From Coleofasciculus sp. FACHB-T130 (GTDB lineage: Bacteria; Cyanobacteriota; Cyanobacteriia; Cyanobacteriales; FACHB-T130), in NCBI RefSeq assembly GCF_014695375.1, contig NZ_JACJOG010000015.1, positions 1 to 64,000 on the forward strand: DNA of 64,000 nucleotides, in the 5' to 3' direction. The translations under genes and the position numbers were made by a program. A model generated the notes under the pieces. That model did no database searches. It saw only the letters and a list, made by a program, of their open reading frames with translations, and was not told the origin of the DNA. Below, piece by piece: positions 4,051 through 27,442 of the stretch; position 1 is the first letter of the stretch; each line of letters begins with the position of its first letter.

Positions 4051-4181
4051 CAAAAGCCCCATCCATTCCCTATCTCAAAGTATTGGCTACCTGCTTATCA
4101 GTCCAAATGTGTCGTTTCTGGAGACAAGATAAGCCATGAATCTGGGCTGTAGTTCGTTGTTGAAGGATTTTGACAGATATG

Positions 4182-4228
4182 AAAAAGCGCCTGGGAGTCT
4201 TGCCGTGTTTCGACCCCAGACGCTTTTT
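4182..4228. terminator. Bidirectional terminator-like hairpin
   Basis: AAAAAGCG-C-CTGGG (4182-4195) pairs with CCCAG-A-CGCTTTTT (4215-4228), giving A/T tracts on both sides, so it could end transcripts in either direction. On the minus strand it is about 310 bases beyond the 88-residue gene at 4541-4807. On that strand GTGTGAGGAG, the complement of the Yfr1 core, lies just before the hairpin. Confidence 0.5.
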
Positions 4229-4540
4229 CTTCTAAACTTGCTCCTCACACAACTAAAGAATATCGCTTGTTCAATCGAGCTAATACTCTACTACGTGACA
4301 CTTGATCAACTGACACGCGCTAGATAAAAATCTTTACATTATGGTTAATGAGCGCCCAGACGGAGGAAAATCGCTCGGCGGCTACAATATTAAGCTGGTC
4401 TCTGGGCGATCGCTCTTTTGTAACGTGACACACCCAATACATTCCAGGTTGCCGAAGCGTCGGTCATCTTTACAATCCCCGATCGAGATTCATTCAGAAC
4501 AACCCACGCCATTTTTCAGTATCAGACCCGATTAGGAATT

Positions 4541-13016: not shown

Positions 13017-13970
13017 TTAAAGTCCTGAGAAAGTGTAACCAACTCCGATTAATAATCCCACCTCTGTTTCATCAACAAAACCGACATTCACGCCAGCGGT
13101 TGCGGTGAATTGGGATGATAATGGAACATCGACCCCGCCCGTAATCAGTGCGCCAATAGTGCTATCGTCACCCGTTGAAATCGCCACTCCGCCTCCAATA
13201 TAAGGGGCTACACGGTATCTGATTTGTTCCACTCCTTGAGATGGGAAATCGTAAGTAAGTGGAACCAGAAAAACTGTATTATCGCCAAATAAAGCAGCGG
13301 GTCGCACAGATAAATTTCTGGTGAGTCCAATTTTGCTAATGACTGCAAAGGCACCTTCACTTAAAGTCGTATCGCCACCTAATCCAATGTTGCCTGCAAC
13401 CCCGATATAACTTGGGCCAGAGCGAGTGGCTCTACCAGGTATTACATCCACTTGAGCGATTTCCGGCGCTGTGGTTTCAGTCGTCGCTGCTTCTGGGAGT
13501 TGAGGTGTTGAAGGTTCAACAGTCAAAGCCGACGCAGACGTTTTCACCCTTTTGTCTACAATCTGCTCTGGGTTTACCGCATCGGAGGTTGCGATCGCTG
13601 TTTTCTCAGGAATTTCCTGCTTTGTCTCGCTAGAAAGGTTAGATGGAGATTGATTCGCCTCGGCTGATGCAGTGGCAGTTGGCAATTTTATTTCTGAAAA
13701 ATCTTGCTCTTGAATTGTTGATTCTGTCAGTACCTTTACAACAGAATCAGGTGAACCTGAATTCGCTACATTCACTTGTTCTTGTACAAAGAAAGTTGTA
13801 ACTTGGTCAGATTGAATTGGAGTCTTATTTGATTCAAAATTATGATTAGGTACTCTGGCAAACGCATCTGTCTTAGGGGTGAAGTCGTCAGTTTCAGCTT
13901 GAGCTGATAAACCACTACAAACAACAGCCAGAGCGGCAAGGCAGAGTAGAGAAGTACCTCTGAACAACAT
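13017..13970 (-). CDS. Exported protein with outer-membrane-barrel-like C-terminus
   Basis: The 317-residue protein begins with a Sec signal peptide (LLCLAALAVVCSGLSAQAE, cleavage near residue 26). A low-complexity Ser/Thr/Glu region follows to about 185, then a glycine-rich, strand-alternating part (GPSYIGVAGNIGLGGD, YRVAPYIGGGVAIST, GLLIGVGYTFSGL). The last third resembles a small eight-stranded beta barrel ending in hydrophobic/aromatic residues, similar to the end of the SLH protein at 61991-63736. I infer an outer-membrane location. The promoter region carries the 40-bp GTCAC element shared with the P-type ATPase and holin-like genes. Confidence 0.75.
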   Translation of the reverse strand: MLFRGTSLLCLAALAVVCSGLSAQAETDDFTPKTDAFARVPNHNFESNKTPIQSDQVTTFFVQEQVNVANSGSPDSVVKVLTESTIQEQDFSEIKLPTATASAEANQSPSNLSSETKQEIPEKTAIATSDAVNPEQIVDKRVKTSASALTVEPSTPQLPEAATTETTAPEIAQVDVIPGRATRSGPSYIGVAGNIGLGGDTTLSEGAFAVISKIGLTRNLSVRPAALFGDNTVFLVPLTYDFPSQGVEQIRYRVAPYIGGGVAISTGDDSTIGALITGGVDVPLSSQFTATAGVNVGFVDETEVGLLIGVGYTFSGL

Positions 13971-14054: not shown

Positions 14055-14095
14055 TATCTTCAGTGTTGGCAACAAATGTGACTAGAAAGTGACAG
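14055..14095 (-). promoter_or_regulatory. GTCAC-N6-GTCAC promoter element, copy 1
   Basis: Read on the minus strand towards the gene at 13970, this is CTGTCACTTTCTAGTCACA, then TTTGTTG and a tail ending ACTGAAGATA. The two GTCAC half-sites (14089-14093, 14078-14082) start 11 bp apart, as expected for an OmpR-class dimer on one face of DNA. The element is about 110 bp from the start codon. Confidence 0.65.
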
Positions 14096-14297: not shown

Positions 14298-15557
14298 CTA
14301 CTGGAGTGGCAGCTCAATTTGAAAAGTTGATCCTTGACCGACTACACTGGTGACTTCGATCCCACCTCCATGAGCTTTGACGATTTGCTCAGCGATCGCT
14401 AATCCCAAACCAAAACCCCCTGTAGTGCGAGAGCGATCGCGATTCACCCGATAAAACCGTTCAAAAATATGGGGCAAATCAGTCGCCGCAATCCCCATCC
14501 CAGTGTCTGAAACTTGAATAATAGCCAGATGCGATCGCGTAAACAATCGCAGTTGAACTTCACCGCCCTCCAGGGTATATTTGCAAGCATTACTCAGCAG
14601 GTTCATCACCGCCAGACGGAGCAACTCTGGATCGGCCTTCACCTCCAAGCTCTCAGTCGGCAGATTACTAACAAAATTTAGATTTTTGGTGGCTGCTTGC
14701 GTTGCATAATTCTCTGCTAGCTCCTGTAGCAAAAGAGTTAGATTAATCTTTCTCAAAGATTCAGGAGATAATGACCCATCATTCCGAGCCAAAAACAGCA
14801 GATTACTCACCAGCGAATTCATTGACTTAGCAACATTCACAATCTTGTCTAGCCGAAGCCGTTGCTGTGAACGATCGTCAGACAGCAACCCGACTTGTGC
14901 ATTGCTAAGAATCGCCGCCAATGGTGTCCGCAGTTCATGGGAAGCATCTGCGGTGAAGCGATGCAGTTGCTCGTAAGCATGACGAATCGGTTGCATCGCT
15001 AGCCCCCCCAAAAACCACCCAGTCAGGCTAATTACCCCCAAGGTGACTGGCACCAAGAGCGTCAGAACCAGCCGCAATTCAGACAAAGCCTCTTGAGTGG
15101 ATGTCAGGGAAGTCGCAACCTGGAGATAACCAATTAATACACTCTTCTCGTAGACAGGCAGCGTTACCTGACGCAGCCAACGTGCAGAGCCATTGGCAGT
15201 TTTGATGGTTTGAAATCCATCTGTCACCGTCAGCTTCTCTGGAGGAAGCGTACCAAAAAATTGCACCAATTGCCCTTTGGCATCGTACCAACGCCCATAC
15301 GCCAGCCCACTATCCAACGGCTGTGGGTTATTTCCCAAAAGTGGCACATTGTCCAGCTCTACCTGCCACTGACCATTGCGACGCTCATAATTCACGCTCG
15401 CTGCCATCACCTTGGTTTGTTGGTAGAGTAATCGATCCAATGCTAAGAGCGCGTCTGCAACTTCTACGTAGTAGACGACTCCTGCAAAAATCACCAAAAT
15501 ACTTCCCATTGATAGGGTGAACCAGCGAGCCAGATTGTGACGGCTACGACCAAACAT
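14298..15557 (-). CDS. Sensor histidine kinase, RppB-like
   Basis: The protein is 419 residues from the ATG at 15557 ([13 protein letters not shown]); the frame extends to a TTG at 15641, which I reject. It has a TM helix at about 12-32, a periplasmic sensor region (to about 165) and a second TM helix ([20 protein letters not shown]). After these come HisKA with [11 protein letters not shown], then the HATPase with [16 protein letters not shown] and GGFGLGLA. It lies 139 bases downstream of an RppA-like regulator gene on the same strand and is presumably its partner. RppB/NrsS in Synechocystis senses redox or nickel; the signal here is not known. Confidence 0.9.
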
Positions 15558-15696
15558 GGAAAAAAGCAAAGTTAAAAAGCGCCCCAAATTCGGGTGTATC
15601 TTTGCTTCCCCGAATCTTGGAGCAAGACAGGCAAAAAGCAAAAGAAAGATTTATTCTGTCATTTTGATTCATTTCTCTTTTGAATTTCTTCTCTTT

Positions 15697-16380
15697 TTAC
15701 TTTTGACTTCCCGAAGGATTGAGGCGATATCCCATGCCATAGACTGTTTCAATCCAATCTGCCGCACCGACTAACTGCAAACGCTGCCGCAGCCTCCGGA
15801 CAAGGGTAGTTACGGCATTGCTCTCTGGTTCTGCACCCCACTCCCACAAGGCTTGTTCAATTTGATCGCGGGTTAAGACCTGATGAGGGTGGCGCAGGAA
15901 GTATTCTAATAGCTGAAACTCGCGGGCGGACAATTGGATAGTTGTCTGTCCCCGTTCAACAGTCAAGCTATTCAAGTGCAGTTGTAAATCTTCTATGCGG
16001 AGGATATCTCCCTGCCATAGAGGCGATCGCCTTCCCAATGCCCGCACCCGTGCCAAAAGTTCGATAATATCAGTCGGTTTAACCAGATAATCATCAGCAC
16101 CGGCATCCAAACTCGTAACTTTATCCACAGTCGTGTCTTTGGCAGTCAGCATCAGCACCGGCGAGGTTTTCCCTGCTTGTCGATACTGGCGACAAAGGCT
16201 CAACCCGCTGACTGTCGGCAACATCCAGTCTAAAATTAACAAGTCATAGTCTTTTTGAGAGATCAGCCATTGGGCAGTTTCCCCATCCTCAATGCCATCG
16301 ACAATATGTCCGGCTTGCAACAAAGCTGCGTTTAGTGGCTCTAATTGTTCGGGGTCGTCTTCTACCAGTAAAATTCTCAT
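15697..16380 (-). CDS. OmpR-class response regulator, RppA-like
   Basis: The 227 residues comprise a receiver (acidic pocket E8-D9, phosphoacceptor Asp51 in LLILDWMLP, Thr79, Lys101) and a winged-helix OmpR/PhoB output domain (SAREFQLLEYFLRHPHQVLT, VTTLVRRLRQRL, IETVYGMGYRL). The sequence (MRILLVEDDPEQLEPLNAAL) is that of proteins annotated RppA in cyanobacteria. The cognate kinase is just downstream. OmpR-class proteins bind direct repeats with an 11-bp period; such repeats occur at four promoters in this window, two of them within 2.5 kb of this gene, so it is my candidate regulator for them (inference). Confidence 0.92.
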   Translation of the reverse strand: MRILLVEDDPEQLEPLNAALLQAGHIVDGIEDGETAQWLISQKDYDLLILDWMLPTVSGLSLCRQYRQAGKTSPVLMLTAKDTTVDKVTSLDAGADDYLVKPTDIIELLARVRALGRRSPLWQGDILRIEDLQLHLNSLTVERGQTTIQLSAREFQLLEYFLRHPHQVLTRDQIEQALWEWGAEPESNAVTTLVRRLRQRLQLVGAADWIETVYGMGYRLNPSGSQK

Positions 16381-17100: not shown

Positions 17101-17454
17101 TTACAATCTGAGCGATGCTAGCAGATGGAAAAGTACAGAATTAACAATGCTCAGCGCCAGGGAGCCAAGCAAAGCACTCCAAAAACCCCACCGTAACCGA
17201 AATCCTGTCACTAACCAAGCGGCTAAACCGAAAATAACTGCATTTAAGACAAACAGGAATAAACCAAATGACAAAAGAATGAATGGAAAGGTGAAGAACC
17301 CTAAGATGGGTTTTAAGAGAGCATTCAAAATTCCAAAAACTGCTGCGGAAATTGCGGCTTTTCCAAAAGTGTCGATTTCTACGCCAATCGGCAGCCGGGA
17401 AATAATTAAAAAACTGATAGTAGTGACTAATCAGGTGATGAGGATTCCAACCAT
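17101..17454 (-). pseudogene. Holin-4/YvlD-like membrane protein gene with TGA at codon 8
   Basis: Read from the ATG at 17454, the translation is MVGILIT, stop (TGA 17431-17433), LVTTISFLIISRLPIGVEID, then FGKAAISAAVFGILNALL and a hydrophobic remainder to 17101. This is the full phage-holin-4-superfamily (YvlD-type) protein of 117 codons, with four hydrophobic segments, interrupted where a Trp (TGG) would fit. The ATG has a perfect AAGGAG eight bases upstream, so the true start is clear. An open frame from TTG at 17328 covers only the last 75 residues. The lesion could be a real nonsense mutation or a sequencing error. Its promoter carries copy 2 of the shared GTCAC element. Confidence 0.8.
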
Positions 17455-17505
17455 AACCAAAACTCCTTATCATCAATCGTTTTGTTACAGGGTCGGGTAA
17501 GTTTC

Positions 17506-17546
17506 CATCTTCAGGGTCATCAATAAATGTGACCAGAAAGTGATAG
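17506..17546 (-). promoter_or_regulatory. GTCAC-N6-GTCAC promoter element, copy 2
   Basis: On the minus strand it reads CTATCACTTTCTGGTCACA, then TTTATTG and a tail ACCCTGAAGATG. The half-sites (17540-17544, 17529-17533) are again 11 bp apart; the first is ATCAC rather than GTCAC. It is about 75 bp from the start of the holin-like gene, in the same orientation as copies 1 and 3. Confidence 0.6.
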
Positions 17547-23342: not shown

Positions 23343-23630
23343 TCAACACGTTCCGGTTAACTCCGCCATCACCTCAGCGACAGACATAATTCGGTCTGCG
23401 CGTCCGGCGTATGCTCCGAAAAAGATTAAGCCGTTCTCTATATCTCTATCCGCTGCCTTGGCGAGTGCCTGAATGATGCAATAGGTTTTTCGGCTAACCC
23501 GACACAGGCAGCTTTCTAAACACTTAGCCATGCATTGTCGTTCTAAATCTGGGAATGCAGCGGCAGCGATGCCTCTTCTAATTGATGGATGGCAGCCAAT
23601 GCTGATGGTGTAAGAAATGTCATCGGATAG
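23343..23630 (-). pseudogene. C-terminal remnant of a nitronate monooxygenase-like flavoprotein
   Basis: The minus-strand frame runs from a stop at 23631-23633 and reads DISYTISIGCHPSIRRGI, then MAKCLESCLCRVSRKTYCII, QALAKAADRDIENGLIFFGA and YAGRADRIMSVAEVMAELTG. The last 60 residues match the C-terminal signature of many NMO/FabK-like flavin oxidoreductases (Cys cluster, YCI-x-ALxxA, GLxFxGxxAxR, VxExxxEL). The flavin-binding barrel, some 250 residues, is missing, and Yfr1 occupies the upstream DNA. It is therefore a remnant unless it has become a small protein from the ATG at 23531. Confidence 0.6.
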
Positions 23631-23661
23631 TCACCAAAACGTCACATTCGCTGACTAGGCT
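23630..23661 (+). promoter_or_regulatory. Yfr1 promoter region with GTCAC-N6-GTCACATT
   Basis: GTCAC at 23630-23634 and GTCACATT from 23641 start 11 bp apart, as in the three other elements in this window. With transcription starting near 23668, the repeats would lie at about -38 and -27, covering the -35 region, and TAGGCT (23656-23661) would be the -10. No TTGACA-like -35 is seen, which fits an activator-dependent promoter (inference). Confidence 0.55.
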
Positions 23662-23667
23662 GATAGT

Positions 23668-23742
23668 AAGAACTGCAAAGTTCTACTCCTCACACCATAA
23701 AATACAGCCCTCTCGTTCAACAGCAAGAGGGCTTTTTCTTTA
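23668..23742 (+). ncRNA. yfr1: Small regulatory RNA Yfr1
   Basis: All parts of Yfr1 are present in order. A 5' hairpin AGAACT-GCAA-AGTTCT (23669-23684) comes first, then the invariant single-stranded core ACTCCTCACAC (23685-23695) and an A-rich linker. A terminator follows: AGCCCTCT (23706-23713), a 12-base loop, AGAGGGCT (23726-23733), then a T-rich tail. Yfr1 is a short, very abundant RNA found in most cyanobacteria; in Prochlorococcus its core pairs with porin mRNAs and inhibits their translation. Here it lies between a broken flavoprotein gene and a CAP-domain gene. The transcript ends should be about right within a few bases. Confidence 0.92.
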
Positions 23743-24565: not shown

Positions 24566-24607
24566 CTGTCACTTTCTAGTCACATTTGTTACTAACACTA
24601 AAGAAAA
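24566..24607 (+). promoter_or_regulatory. GTCAC-N6-GTCAC promoter element, copy 3
   Basis: On the plus strand it reads CTGTCACTTTCTAGTCACA, then TTTGTTACTAACACTAAAGA. It is almost identical to copy 1 and in the same orientation relative to the downstream ATPase gene, about 105 bp from its start. Half-sites are at 24568-24572 and 24579-24583. The divergent CAP gene begins 94 bp on the other side. Confidence 0.65.
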
Positions 24608-24688
24608 CAGAATCTATGCAAGAAACTCATACTTTTTGGTTTTTTGTCTGCAACAGATAGACTTCTTGCCTCTAGAGGAGCCAACAAA

Positions 24689-27442
24689 ATGACAGCAACA
24701 GCGAAAGAGAAATCAGTGGGAAATCAGTGGCATCATCTACCTGTGGGAGAAGTTGCTCAGAATTTAGACAGCAACATAGAAACAGGTTTGACATCTGCTG
24801 AAGTAACAAAGCGACAGGAACGTTTTGGAGCGAACGAACTCAAGGGTAAAGCCGGAAAAAGTCCCTTAGTGCGATTTCTCCAGCAATTTAATCAACCGCT
24901 CCTGTATATTTTGTTAATTGCTGGTGCAGTCAAGGCATTTCTAGGGGAATGGGTGAATGCGTGGGTAATTTGGGGCGTGACGCTAATTAACGCCATTATC
25001 GGATTTGTCCAAGAATCAAAAGCCGAAAGCGCGATCGCTGCCTTAGCTTCTTCTGTCCAAACAGATGCAAATGTACTGCGCGAGGGTCAAAAAGTACAAG
25101 TTCCTTCGACTGAGTTAGTACCGGGCGATCTCGTACTCCTCACTTCTGGAGACAAAGTACCTGCCGATTTGCGACTGGTGAAGGTGCGTAACTTGCAAGT
25201 GAACGAATCTGCACTCACCGGCGAGTCGGTTGCAGTACAAAAAGAGGCGGAAACAGAAGCCCCGCTTTTGCACCTAGACGCACCCTTGGCGGAGCGAACC
25301 AATATGGCTTATGCTGGCAGCTTCGTGACATTTGGTACTGCCAGGGGCGTTGTCGTCGCAATTGGGGAGGCGACTGAAACCGGGCGAATCTCCCAGTTAA
25401 TGGATCGGGGAAGCAGCCTGATAACCCCCTTAACTCGCAAATTTGACAAATTCAGTCGAAAATTGCTGTACGTCATTCTAGGAGTCGCCGCGCTAACGTT
25501 TGCCGTGGGCTGGGGGTACGGCAATTCCTGGGTAAAAATGTTTGAAGCTGCCGTAGCCTTGGCAGTGAGTGCGATTCCCGAAGGATTACCTGCCGTTGTG
25601 ACGGTGACGCTGGCGATTGGCGTTTCCCGCATGGCTCGTCGTCATGCTATTGTCCGCAAGTTGCCAGCCGTTGAAACTCTGGGTGGTGCCACAGTCATTT
25701 GTTCTGACAAAACCGGCACCTTGACTGAAAACCAGATGACGGTACAAGCCATTTATGCCGGAGGTCAGCACTATACAGCCAGCGGTAGCGGCTACAATCC
25801 GGCAGGGGAAATCCTGTTAGAAGAAAAACCGATTAACCTGAACAATTTCCCCGTTCTTCTAGAGTGTTTAAAAGCCGGATTGTTATGCAATGACTCCCGC
25901 CTTGAAGTCAAGGACGAGCAATGGGTTGTGATTGGCGATCCGACAGAGGGAGCTTTAATTGCTGTTGCCAATAAAGTGGGATTAAAGCAGTCAAACTTAG
26001 AGCGAGAAATGCCTAGGTTGGATGTTATTCCGTTTGAGTCTGAATTTCAGTACATGGCAACGTTGCATGAAGGTAAAAGCGATGGGGACGGGCGGGGAAA
26101 CCCCGGTACGACGATTTACGTGAAGGGTTCGGTGGAGGCAATTCTCCAGCGCTGTCAGCAGATGCTAGATGCTGATGGGAGTTTGATCCCTGTGGATGGA
26201 GAAACGGTGCATCGGGAAGTCGATGCAATGGCAGAACAAGGGCTACGGGTGTTGGCCTTGGCGAAGAAGCCCGTGTCAGCCGAGCAACAATCAGTAGATC
26301 ATGGTGATATTGCAAAGAATCTGATTTTCATCGGATTGCAGGGGATGATCGATCCGCCGCGAAAAGAAGCGATCGCTGCCGTGCAAGCCTGTCAAGAAGC
26401 GGGGATTCAAGTCAAGATGATTACGGGCGATCATGCTGTCACCGCAGCAGCGATCGCTTCTCGCATGGAATTGAAAAAGCATGGGGAAGTTCTGGCATTC
26501 ACCGGACAAGATCTTGCTCAAATGAATGAACAAGAACTGGCGACAGCGGTAGAAGATGGAGTCGTGTTTGCCCGTGTCGCACCGGAACAAAAACTCCGTC
26601 TTGTCGAAGCTTTACAACTTAAAGGCGAAGTTGTCGCGATGACGGGGGATGGGGTTAACGATGCGCCTGCACTCAAGCAAGCAGATATTGGGATTGCAAT
26701 GGGAGGTGCGGGTACTGAGGTAGCAAAAGAAGCCGCCGATATGATTTTGACCGATGATAACTTTGCCTCGATAGAAGCGGCTGTTGAGGAAGGTCGTACC
26801 GTTTACCGAAATCTCCTGAAAGCGATCGCCTTCATTCTCCCCGTTAATGGTGGCGAATCGATGACGATTTTGATTAGCGTGTTACTCGCTAGAGAATTGC
26901 CCATCTTATCTTTACAAGTTCTCTGGCTAAATATGGTTAATTCCATTGCAATGACCGTCCCCTTAGCCTTTGAGCCTAAATCTCAGCAGGTGATGCAACA
27001 GCCTCCACGCAACCCGAATGAACCCTTGCTTTCTGGCAGTCTGTTAAAGCGGATCTTAGTAATTTCTGCTTTTAACTGGATTGTAATTTTTGGCGTATTT
27101 GAATGGATGAAACAAACAACCGGGAATATTGATTTAGCCCGCACAATGGCAATCCAGGCTTTAGTGGTCGGGAGAATCTTTTATCTTTTAAGCATTAGCC
27201 ACTTTGGAAATGCTGTCATCGCCAAAATTCGTGGCATCGGACGCATTCGCAATTCCCCAGCCCTGGCAATTGGGATTGCCTGCACTGTGCTTTTGCAAGT
27301 AATCTTCAGTCAGTGGAGCCTAATGAATGGCTTATTCTCCACAACACCACTGAACTTAAATCAATGGCTCATTTGCCTGTTGGTGGGGTTGCCAATGATT
27401 GCAGTAGCCGCCTTCGTCAATCGCTTTGATCCACAACACTAA
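24689..27442 (+). CDS. Cation-transporting P-type ATPase (type II)
   Basis: The 917-residue protein starts at the ATG at 24689, which has GAGGAG eight bases upstream; the frame extends to a TTG at 24644. Features are an N-terminal cation-ATPase domain (LTSAEVTKRQERFGANEL), the actuator TGES loop (ESALTGESV), a PEGLP ion-site helix (SAIPEGLPAVVT), the phosphorylated DKTGTLT (Asp340), MITGDH, MTGDGVNDAPALKQADIGI and six C-terminal helices. It belongs to the Ca2+/H+/Na+ group seen in cyanobacterial PMA1- or PacL-like pumps; the ion cannot be set from sequence alone. The promoter has the GTCAC element found at two other envelope-protein genes. Confidence 0.93.
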   Translation: MTATAKEKSVGNQWHHLPVGEVAQNLDSNIETGLTSAEVTKRQERFGANELKGKAGKSPLVRFLQQFNQPLLYILLIAGAVKAFLGEWVNAWVIWGVTLINAIIGFVQESKAESAIAALASSVQTDANVLREGQKVQVPSTELVPGDLVLLTSGDKVPADLRLVKVRNLQVNESALTGESVAVQKEAETEAPLLHLDAPLAERTNMAYAGSFVTFGTARGVVVAIGEATETGRISQLMDRGSSLITPLTRKFDKFSRKLLYVILGVAALTFAVGWGYGNSWVKMFEAAVALAVSAIPEGLPAVVTVTLAIGVSRMARRHAIVRKLPAVETLGGATVICSDKTGTLTENQMTVQAIYAGGQHYTASGSGYNPAGEILLEEKPINLNNFPVLLECLKAGLLCNDSRLEVKDEQWVVIGDPTEGALIAVANKVGLKQSNLEREMPRLDVIPFESEFQYMATLHEGKSDGDGRGNPGTTIYVKGSVEAILQRCQQMLDADGSLIPVDGETVHREVDAMAEQGLRVLALAKKPVSAEQQSVDHGDIAKNLIFIGLQGMIDPPRKEAIAAVQACQEAGIQVKMITGDHAVTAAAIASRMELKKHGEVLAFTGQDLAQMNEQELATAVEDGVVFARVAPEQKLRLVEALQLKGEVVAMTGDGVNDAPALKQADIGIAMGGAGTEVAKEAADMILTDDNFASIEAAVEEGRTVYRNLLKAIAFILPVNGGESMTILISVLLARELPILSLQVLWLNMVNSIAMTVPLAFEPKSQQVMQQPPRNPNEPLLSGSLLKRILVISAFNWIVIFGVFEWMKQTTGNIDLARTMAIQALVVGRIFYLLSISHFGNAVIAKIRGIGRIRNSPALAIGIACTVLLQVIFSQWSLMNGLFSTTPLNLNQWLICLLVGLPMIAVAAFVNRFDPQH

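Follow-up and report, generated by a model that had tools for sequence, protein, structure and literature searches.

A genus-specific second Yfr1-motif small RNA gene and its candidate two-component regulator in a cyanobacterium

The genome of Coleofasciculus sp. FACHB-T130 carries, at 23669–23742 of the stretch analysed here, a gene that resembles the small RNA gene yfr1 and is preceded by two GTCAC repeats, which raises the questions of whether it is yfr1 itself and what would control it. The window is the whole stretch of 64,000 nucleotides. The RNA is a second Yfr1-motif RNA, encoded by a genus-specific gene distinct from yfr1. On balance, we think it probable that an RppA-like regulator switches on this conditional RNA, which would block the mRNAs of SomB-type porins, and that the same regulator drives other envelope genes.

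Anatomy and identity of the RNA gene

The following small RNA genes of the window are referred to below.
23669–23742, forward strand: second Yfr1-motif small RNA, assigned from its fold, core, terminator and identity with a sister genome; the start is predicted.
4179–4254, reverse strand: Cyano-1 RNA, which we take to be of the Yfr2 family (Yfr2-type; 52.6 bits, cut-off 41), with a 5′ end complementary to the Yfr1 core.

The second RNA was composed of a 5′ hairpin of 6 bp (23669–23684), an unpaired core, ACTCCTCACACC (23685–23696), which opened an unpaired stretch of 21 nt, and a terminator (23706–23733) with a U-rich tail to 23742. As judged from the sequence, transcription would start near 23669. 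The predicted fold had an energy of −21 kcal/mol and a z-score of −5.6, and equal stability was reached in 0 of 200 shuffles. The earlier note had placed a hairpin, an invariant core and a terminator in this order at 23668–23742, and this anatomy was borne out at 23669–23742.

The window RNA shared with Yfr1 (RF01116) two stem-loops around an unpaired ACUCCUCACAC, a length of about 70 nt and predicted porin targets. This ultraconserved ACUCCUCACAC was left unpaired between the two stem-loops, within an unpaired stretch of 21 nt as against 16–20 nt in the published Yfr1 range (PMC2190773, in excerpt). In contrast to Yfr1, the window RNA stayed below the Rfam cut-off (21.1 bits against a gathering cut-off of 38), was located away from guaB–trxA, between HetL-like and CAP genes, and had a promoter of the regulated type, while a canonical copy was present elsewhere in the genome. 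This canonical yfr1 (C9:15032–15096), which scored 62.2 bits with the Rfam model and had an unlike 5′ hairpin, was located between two genes that, from their translations, we take to be guaB and trxA. The corresponding location was reported by guaB in 25 of 31 genomes and by trxA in 27 of 31 (PMC2190773, in excerpt).

The Rfam score and the synteny, with the canonical copy at C9, ruled out the window RNA as the yfr1 orthologue. The covariance-model search that had been proposed to confirm the name "Yfr1 RNA gene" thus spoke against it, and the orthologue sits at guaB–trxA. The setting of marine picocyanobacteria, from which the earlier note had drawn, did not apply either, as the host genome of 6.2 Mb is not that of a streamlined marine picocyanobacterium.

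The closest parallel was provided by Yfr10, Yfr12 and Yfr18 of Prochlorococcus, which are extra RNAs with the Yfr1 11-mer; in the available passages of the two sources, Yfr12 has a mutated 11-mer, the synteny of Yfr10 is not conserved, Yfr10 has its motif in the loop that caps a stem, and Yfr10-group genes adjoin Yfr2-type genes (PMC6778093, PMC2518516). As in this class, an extra motif RNA was present besides yfr1 both in the window genome and in the sister genome, G001 (canonical copy at C31:20904, second copy at C22:71313). The window RNA differed from the class in that two stems flanked its motif and in that 19 kb separated its gene from the Cyano-1 gene.

The GTCAC element and the genes behind it

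The promoter of the RNA gene, the related elements of the window and the genes behind them were as follows.
23619–23648, forward strand: operator-like region of the RNA gene, with GTCAT at 23619, GTCAC at 23630 and GTCACATT at 23641, in an 11-bp period.
23656–23661, forward strand: predicted −10 sequence TAGGCT, at the offset of the A, C and T conserved in sites from other genera.
24568–24586, forward strand: element GTCACTTTCTAGTCACATT, with the P-type ATPase gene 58 bases downstream; 48.8 bits, the best of the window.
14075–14093, reverse strand: element GTCACTTTCTAGTCACATT, before the outer-membrane-protein gene; 47.7 bits.
17526–17544, reverse strand: element ATCACTTTCTGGTCACATT with one mismatch, before the small holin-like frame; 38.4 bits; an exact copy in G001.
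24644–27442, forward strand: P-type cation ATPase, type IIA, calcium-like (TIGR01522, 665 bits, below the cut-off of 798; Pfam E1-E2_ATPase).
13017–13970, reverse strand: probable outer-membrane protein (OMP), with a signal-peptide-like start and a beta-rich C terminus.
17105–17460, reverse strand: small holin-like membrane protein frame (named by eye), behind the element at 17544.

The positions of GTCAC at 23630 and of GTCACATT at 23641, and their 11-bp period, agreed with the earlier note. The consensus of the element was GTCACTTTCnnGTCACATT. The pattern GTCACN6GTCACATT occurred three times in the window, within 10.5 kb, against 0.00 copies expected from 100 shuffles, and four times in the 6.2-Mb genome, against none for the reversed pattern. 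The genomic copy at C31 was rejected as a true element; it was located inside a long palindrome, had no downstream similarity (−4.7 bits) and looked like a chance match.

Exact copies were found in 15 of the 80 genomes searched, the own genome included. Outside the genus, there were 24 exact sites with 23 distinct sequences. They conserved a T at position −1, the spacer TTTC and, at a fixed offset, a −10-like motif (A 0.83, C 0.79 and T 0.90 at offsets 27, 30 and 31), all of which were absent from the search pattern. Operators of the OmpR/PhoB type are composed of direct repeats with an 11-bp period near −35, at a fixed spacing to −10, and this layout was found here, with 11-bp direct repeats near −35 and a fixed −10 spacing. 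We read the element as a real regulatory site and not as a product of chance. A description of the element was not found in the available parts of the literature on the element or the regulator, in which one paper on a Synechocystis plasmid contained GTCACATT once.

Outside the genus, the OMP orthologue was located behind an exact element in seven genomes (G002, G005, G018, G021, G048, G059 and G069). In G002 and G005, a copy with two mismatches stood 95 bases before the ATPase orthologue, and in G079 an exact copy preceded it by 878 bases. Exact sites also preceded a permease gene in two genomes (G021 and G048), a methyltransferase gene in one (G046) and a relative of the small membrane protein in one (G018). 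None of the tested window proteins had a relative within 1.3 kb downstream at 13 of the 24 outside sites, a count that includes two low-similarity-spacing sites of G002 and G005 not in that scan. The OMP itself gave no match in Pfam or NCBIfam, and its single-sequence structure prediction contained strands but, at a mean pLDDT of 38, was uninformative. An early stop codon interrupted the holin-like frame of the window, and the G001 copy was open. In G046, one contig (C39; L066 and L067) contained five exact elements in about 19 kb; over the 1.3 kb behind each, no relative of a tested protein was encoded, and these elements may possibly serve further genes or small transcripts.

A scoring matrix of 43 positions was built from the 23 distinct sites outside the genus, so that the RNA site was outside the training set. 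Scores above 8 bits were obtained at only four positions of the window (128 kb of strands), namely 24568, 14093, 17544 and the RNA site, which scored 28.5 bits. The downstream part of the RNA site was within the top 4.7e-5 of window positions, whereas its spacer part was ordinary; the −1 T and the TTTC spacer were absent, and the spacer score of −8.8 was equalled or exceeded by 73% of window positions. The site is therefore classed as an atypical member of the class that has a third, in-phase repeat and no TTTC spacer.

The combined arrangement of element and RNA (GTCAYATT, then ACTCCTCACAC within 20–50 bases) was found in only two of the 388 genomes searched in the order, which belong to the same genus. 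With a stricter pattern (GTCACATT, CTCCTCACAC), one of 388 genomes of the class was found, and G001 was absent from that list. When the window was compared with G001, all four sites were kept, two of them exact to the pattern and two with one change, which is weak evidence because the two genomes differ by only about 6% in this region. The three repeat positions before the RNA read GTCAT, GTCAT and GTCACATT in G001, the middle repeat thus being GTCAT, and the G001 site scored 18.1 with the matrix. The RNA was found in just two genomes, which are close relatives, so that divergence gives no footprint of its promoter.

It is unlikely, though the idea deserves some weight, that the RNA is real and its GTCAC pair coincidental, with an ordinary promoter outside the regulon of the regulator. 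The exact 13-base pattern was joined by a third in-phase repeat and by a −10-like motif at the class offset, with the high downstream similarity given above; another class member was located 0.94 kb away; and the clear chance match at C31 had no such similarity. What speaks for coincidence is that the spacer and the −1 position misfit the class, that the arrangement occurs in one genus only, and that the sister promoter was barely better conserved than its flank (58 of 62 identical positions against 344 of 376 upstream).

The element was absent upstream of 29 Yfr1 cores from 30 canonical loci, where the best score was −2.7 bits as against 28.5 for the window RNA. The canonical yfr1 promoters examined, whose alignment had been suggested as a check on the GTCAC pair, thus lack the element. 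The match had been expected to be coincidental if relatives conserved Yfr1 without the pair; on this test the claim fails for yfr1, with the element at 0 of 29 cores. The window RNA, however, is encoded by a separate, genus-specific gene, whose element was kept in the sister genome with one change.

The candidate regulator

A two-component system was encoded next to the OMP gene of the window.
15697–16380, reverse strand: response regulator of the OmpR/PhoB type, RppA-like paralogue (NF041734, 263 bits, cut-off 250); putative binder of the element.
14298–15641, reverse strand: sensor histidine kinase, RppB-like (NF041735, 308 bits, below the cut-off of 400).

The nearest known counterpart is RppA/RppB of Synechocystis (sll0797), presumably the pair also called NrsR/NrsS. 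The window pair was alike in that the regulator passed the NCBIfam RppA cut-off (NF041734) of 250 and the kinase was RppB-like. It was unlike in that the best RppA of the genome was located at C4 (417 bits) and that the RppA motif was absent from the window. With RppA-family paralogues at C4, C14 and C22, at least three other RppA-like regulators were present in the genome. The published binding motif of Synechocystis RppA, AAMAWCTCYYWCCCC, is unlike the GTCAC repeats (PMC13421787, in excerpt) and, at up to two mismatches, gave 0 matches in the window against 3.3 expected by chance. This would fit a paralogue with a different specificity.

At a threshold of E ≤ 1e-95, 26 of the 80 genomes had an orthologue of the regulator. 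The orthologue was present in 13 of the 15 element genomes and in 13 of the 65 others (Fisher, 2.3e-6). When the genus was left out, the figures were 11 of 13 against 13 of 65 (1.7e-5). Counted once per family, which is fairer because the genomes are related, they were 7 of 9 against 7 of 24, a modest difference (p = 0.017). Two of the 15 element genomes had no regulator, and 13 of the 26 regulator genomes had no exact element. Furthermore, regulator, kinase and element shared one fetched stretch in five genomes outside the genus (G002, G005, G046, G048 and G059), and weaker elements of 15–22 bits were located near the regulator orthologue in five genomes without exact copies (G009, G010, G024, G049 and G070).

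The suggestion that one regulator sets both the OMP gene (site 14075–14093) and the RNA is probably right, given the shared element class and its co-occurrence with the regulator. The binding of another OmpR-type regulator to the same promoter class is quite improbable; the RppA-family paralogues at C4, C14 and C22 and the two element genomes without an orthologue would leave room for it, whereas the window regulator is favoured by its co-occurrence with the element and by the loci that they share, and the published RppA motif differs. Under the favoured reading, in which the RppA-like regulator controls the RNA, the kinase would sense a signal, probably from the envelope or a cation. The regulator would most likely bind the 11-bp-phased GTCAC promoters and activate rather than repress them. 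The active regulator would then raise transcription of the OMP gene, the P-type ATPase gene, the small membrane protein gene and the RNA.

Predicted pairing partners and distribution of the RNA

The reported targets of Yfr1 are porin mRNAs in Prochlorococcus and, in Nostoc, genes of the outer membrane and the cell wall (PMC6974561, in excerpt). SomB-type porins were searched in the family (47 matches in six genomes), and 30 loci were examined, the start codons being assigned by eye. In 11 of the 30 loci, a stretch of 10–12 nt near the start was exactly complementary to the core, a length reached in 0 of 50 shuffles for each, although the shuffles somewhat overstate significance because ribosome-binding sites are GAGG-rich. 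The other 19 loci had shorter core complements or none. In the host genome, two of the five porin loci examined (10 matches) had such long complements, C22:151484 (por_somb, 467 bits) and C53:1514. At the 11 starts, the core duplex had an energy of −20.2 to −25.1 kcal/mol, as a simple duplex energy without accessibility.

The 9-mer TGTGAGGAG occurred 39 times in the genome, as against 24 times for its reversed control. Of these 39 copies, two were the opposite strands of the two Yfr1-type RNAs, and two more belonged to Cyano-1 RNAs. Scans for Cyano-1 covered the window and 27 of the 39 loci, and two RNAs exceeded the Rfam cut-off, the reverse-strand RNA at 4179–4254 and one at C46:38042 (L182), and in each the 5′ end was complementary to the Yfr1 core. 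A core complement was also located at the start of a secretin-like protein (L158, C10:22166; PilQ model 22 bits, cut-off 284) and at the start of a frame resembling a LysM/M23 peptidase by eye (L171, C30:147740); both genes are candidate further targets of the Yfr1 core.

Through its unpaired ACUCCUCACACC, the RNA would bind SomB-type porin mRNAs at their ribosome-binding sites, as well as Yfr2-type RNAs, and the pairing would lower porin synthesis. As the canonical Yfr1 has the same core, these porin targets are common to both RNAs, and conditional expression would be what the second RNA adds.

The earlier note had proposed a feed-forward arrangement, in which one regulator might set both an outer-membrane-protein gene and the RNA that limits such proteins. 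When 53 gene starts of the window were ranked by duplex energy with the RNA, the OMP start ranked 31 and the ATPase start 26; because both pair poorly, feed-forward on the same gene is not indicated, and this proposal was set aside for both genes. For the RNA, SomB-type porins encoded elsewhere in the genome are predicted as targets. A coordinated switch is indicated instead, with other envelope genes raised and porins lowered.

The RNA might mainly titrate Yfr2-type (Cyano-1) RNAs and so free the canonical Yfr1, rather than silence porins. The core paired with the window Cyano-1 RNA at −19.7 kcal/mol, and an interaction of Yfr2 with Yfr1 and Yfr10 was reported in Prochlorococcus MED4 (PMC6778093, in excerpt). 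This role is improbable, since the 11 porin starts paired with the core equally or more strongly. That the RNA is a decaying, functionless yfr1 duplicate is very improbable: despite its occurrence in two species only and its low Rfam score, hairpin, core and terminator were intact, the 5′ hairpin differed from that of canonical yfr1, and window and G001 were identical at 72 of 74 positions of the RNA, with both differences outside the predicted stems, as against 344 of 376 upstream and 35 of 44 downstream.

Enterobacterial OmpR–MicF is a system in which a two-component regulator is tied to membrane-protein genes and to a porin-silencing small RNA. The favoured reading of a regulator-controlled Yfr1-motif RNA is alike in this linkage, with targets that are here only predicted. 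It is unlike in that the RNA and regulator lineages are unrelated and in that the window RNA comes without evidence for Hfq. With about as much doubt as belief, we propose that the genus placed a duplicated Yfr1-motif RNA in an RppA-like two-component regulon, by which steady porin silencing would become a stimulus-controlled switch. In MED4, Yfr1 changes only slightly under the stresses tested, and Lambrecht et al. stated that it is unknown which regulators alter the expression of yfr10 when light varies (PMC6778093, in excerpt). If the proposal is true, a Yfr1-motif RNA gains a defined regulator and a GTCAC regulon is revealed across the order. The question of the regulator becomes testable because the operator is common to membrane-protein genes and the candidate regulator is located 7 kb away. 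The presence of the element in several families of the order outlines an RppA-like regulon, whose targets would be predictable in many cyanobacteria.

In the stretches of G002 and G005 around the CAP orthologue and the regulator, CTCCTCACAC was not found, while regulator, kinase and OMP element were present. A scan of named genomes for GTTCTACTCCTCACACC gave six matches, five of them non-cyanobacterial by title, in a set that possibly omits records of the own or a very near genome. The match in Calothrix NIES-3974 was rejected as a second RNA, having no terminator-like fold. Among the non-canonical motif matches of relatives that were folded (L033, L036, L044, L050 and L052), only L044 resembled another extra RNA. 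This candidate (G003:C230:12383), from a third genus of the family, had the core and a terminator hairpin, and the GTCAC pair was not seen by eye in the 80 bases upstream. Given L044, extra copies of Yfr1-motif RNAs may have arisen repeatedly.
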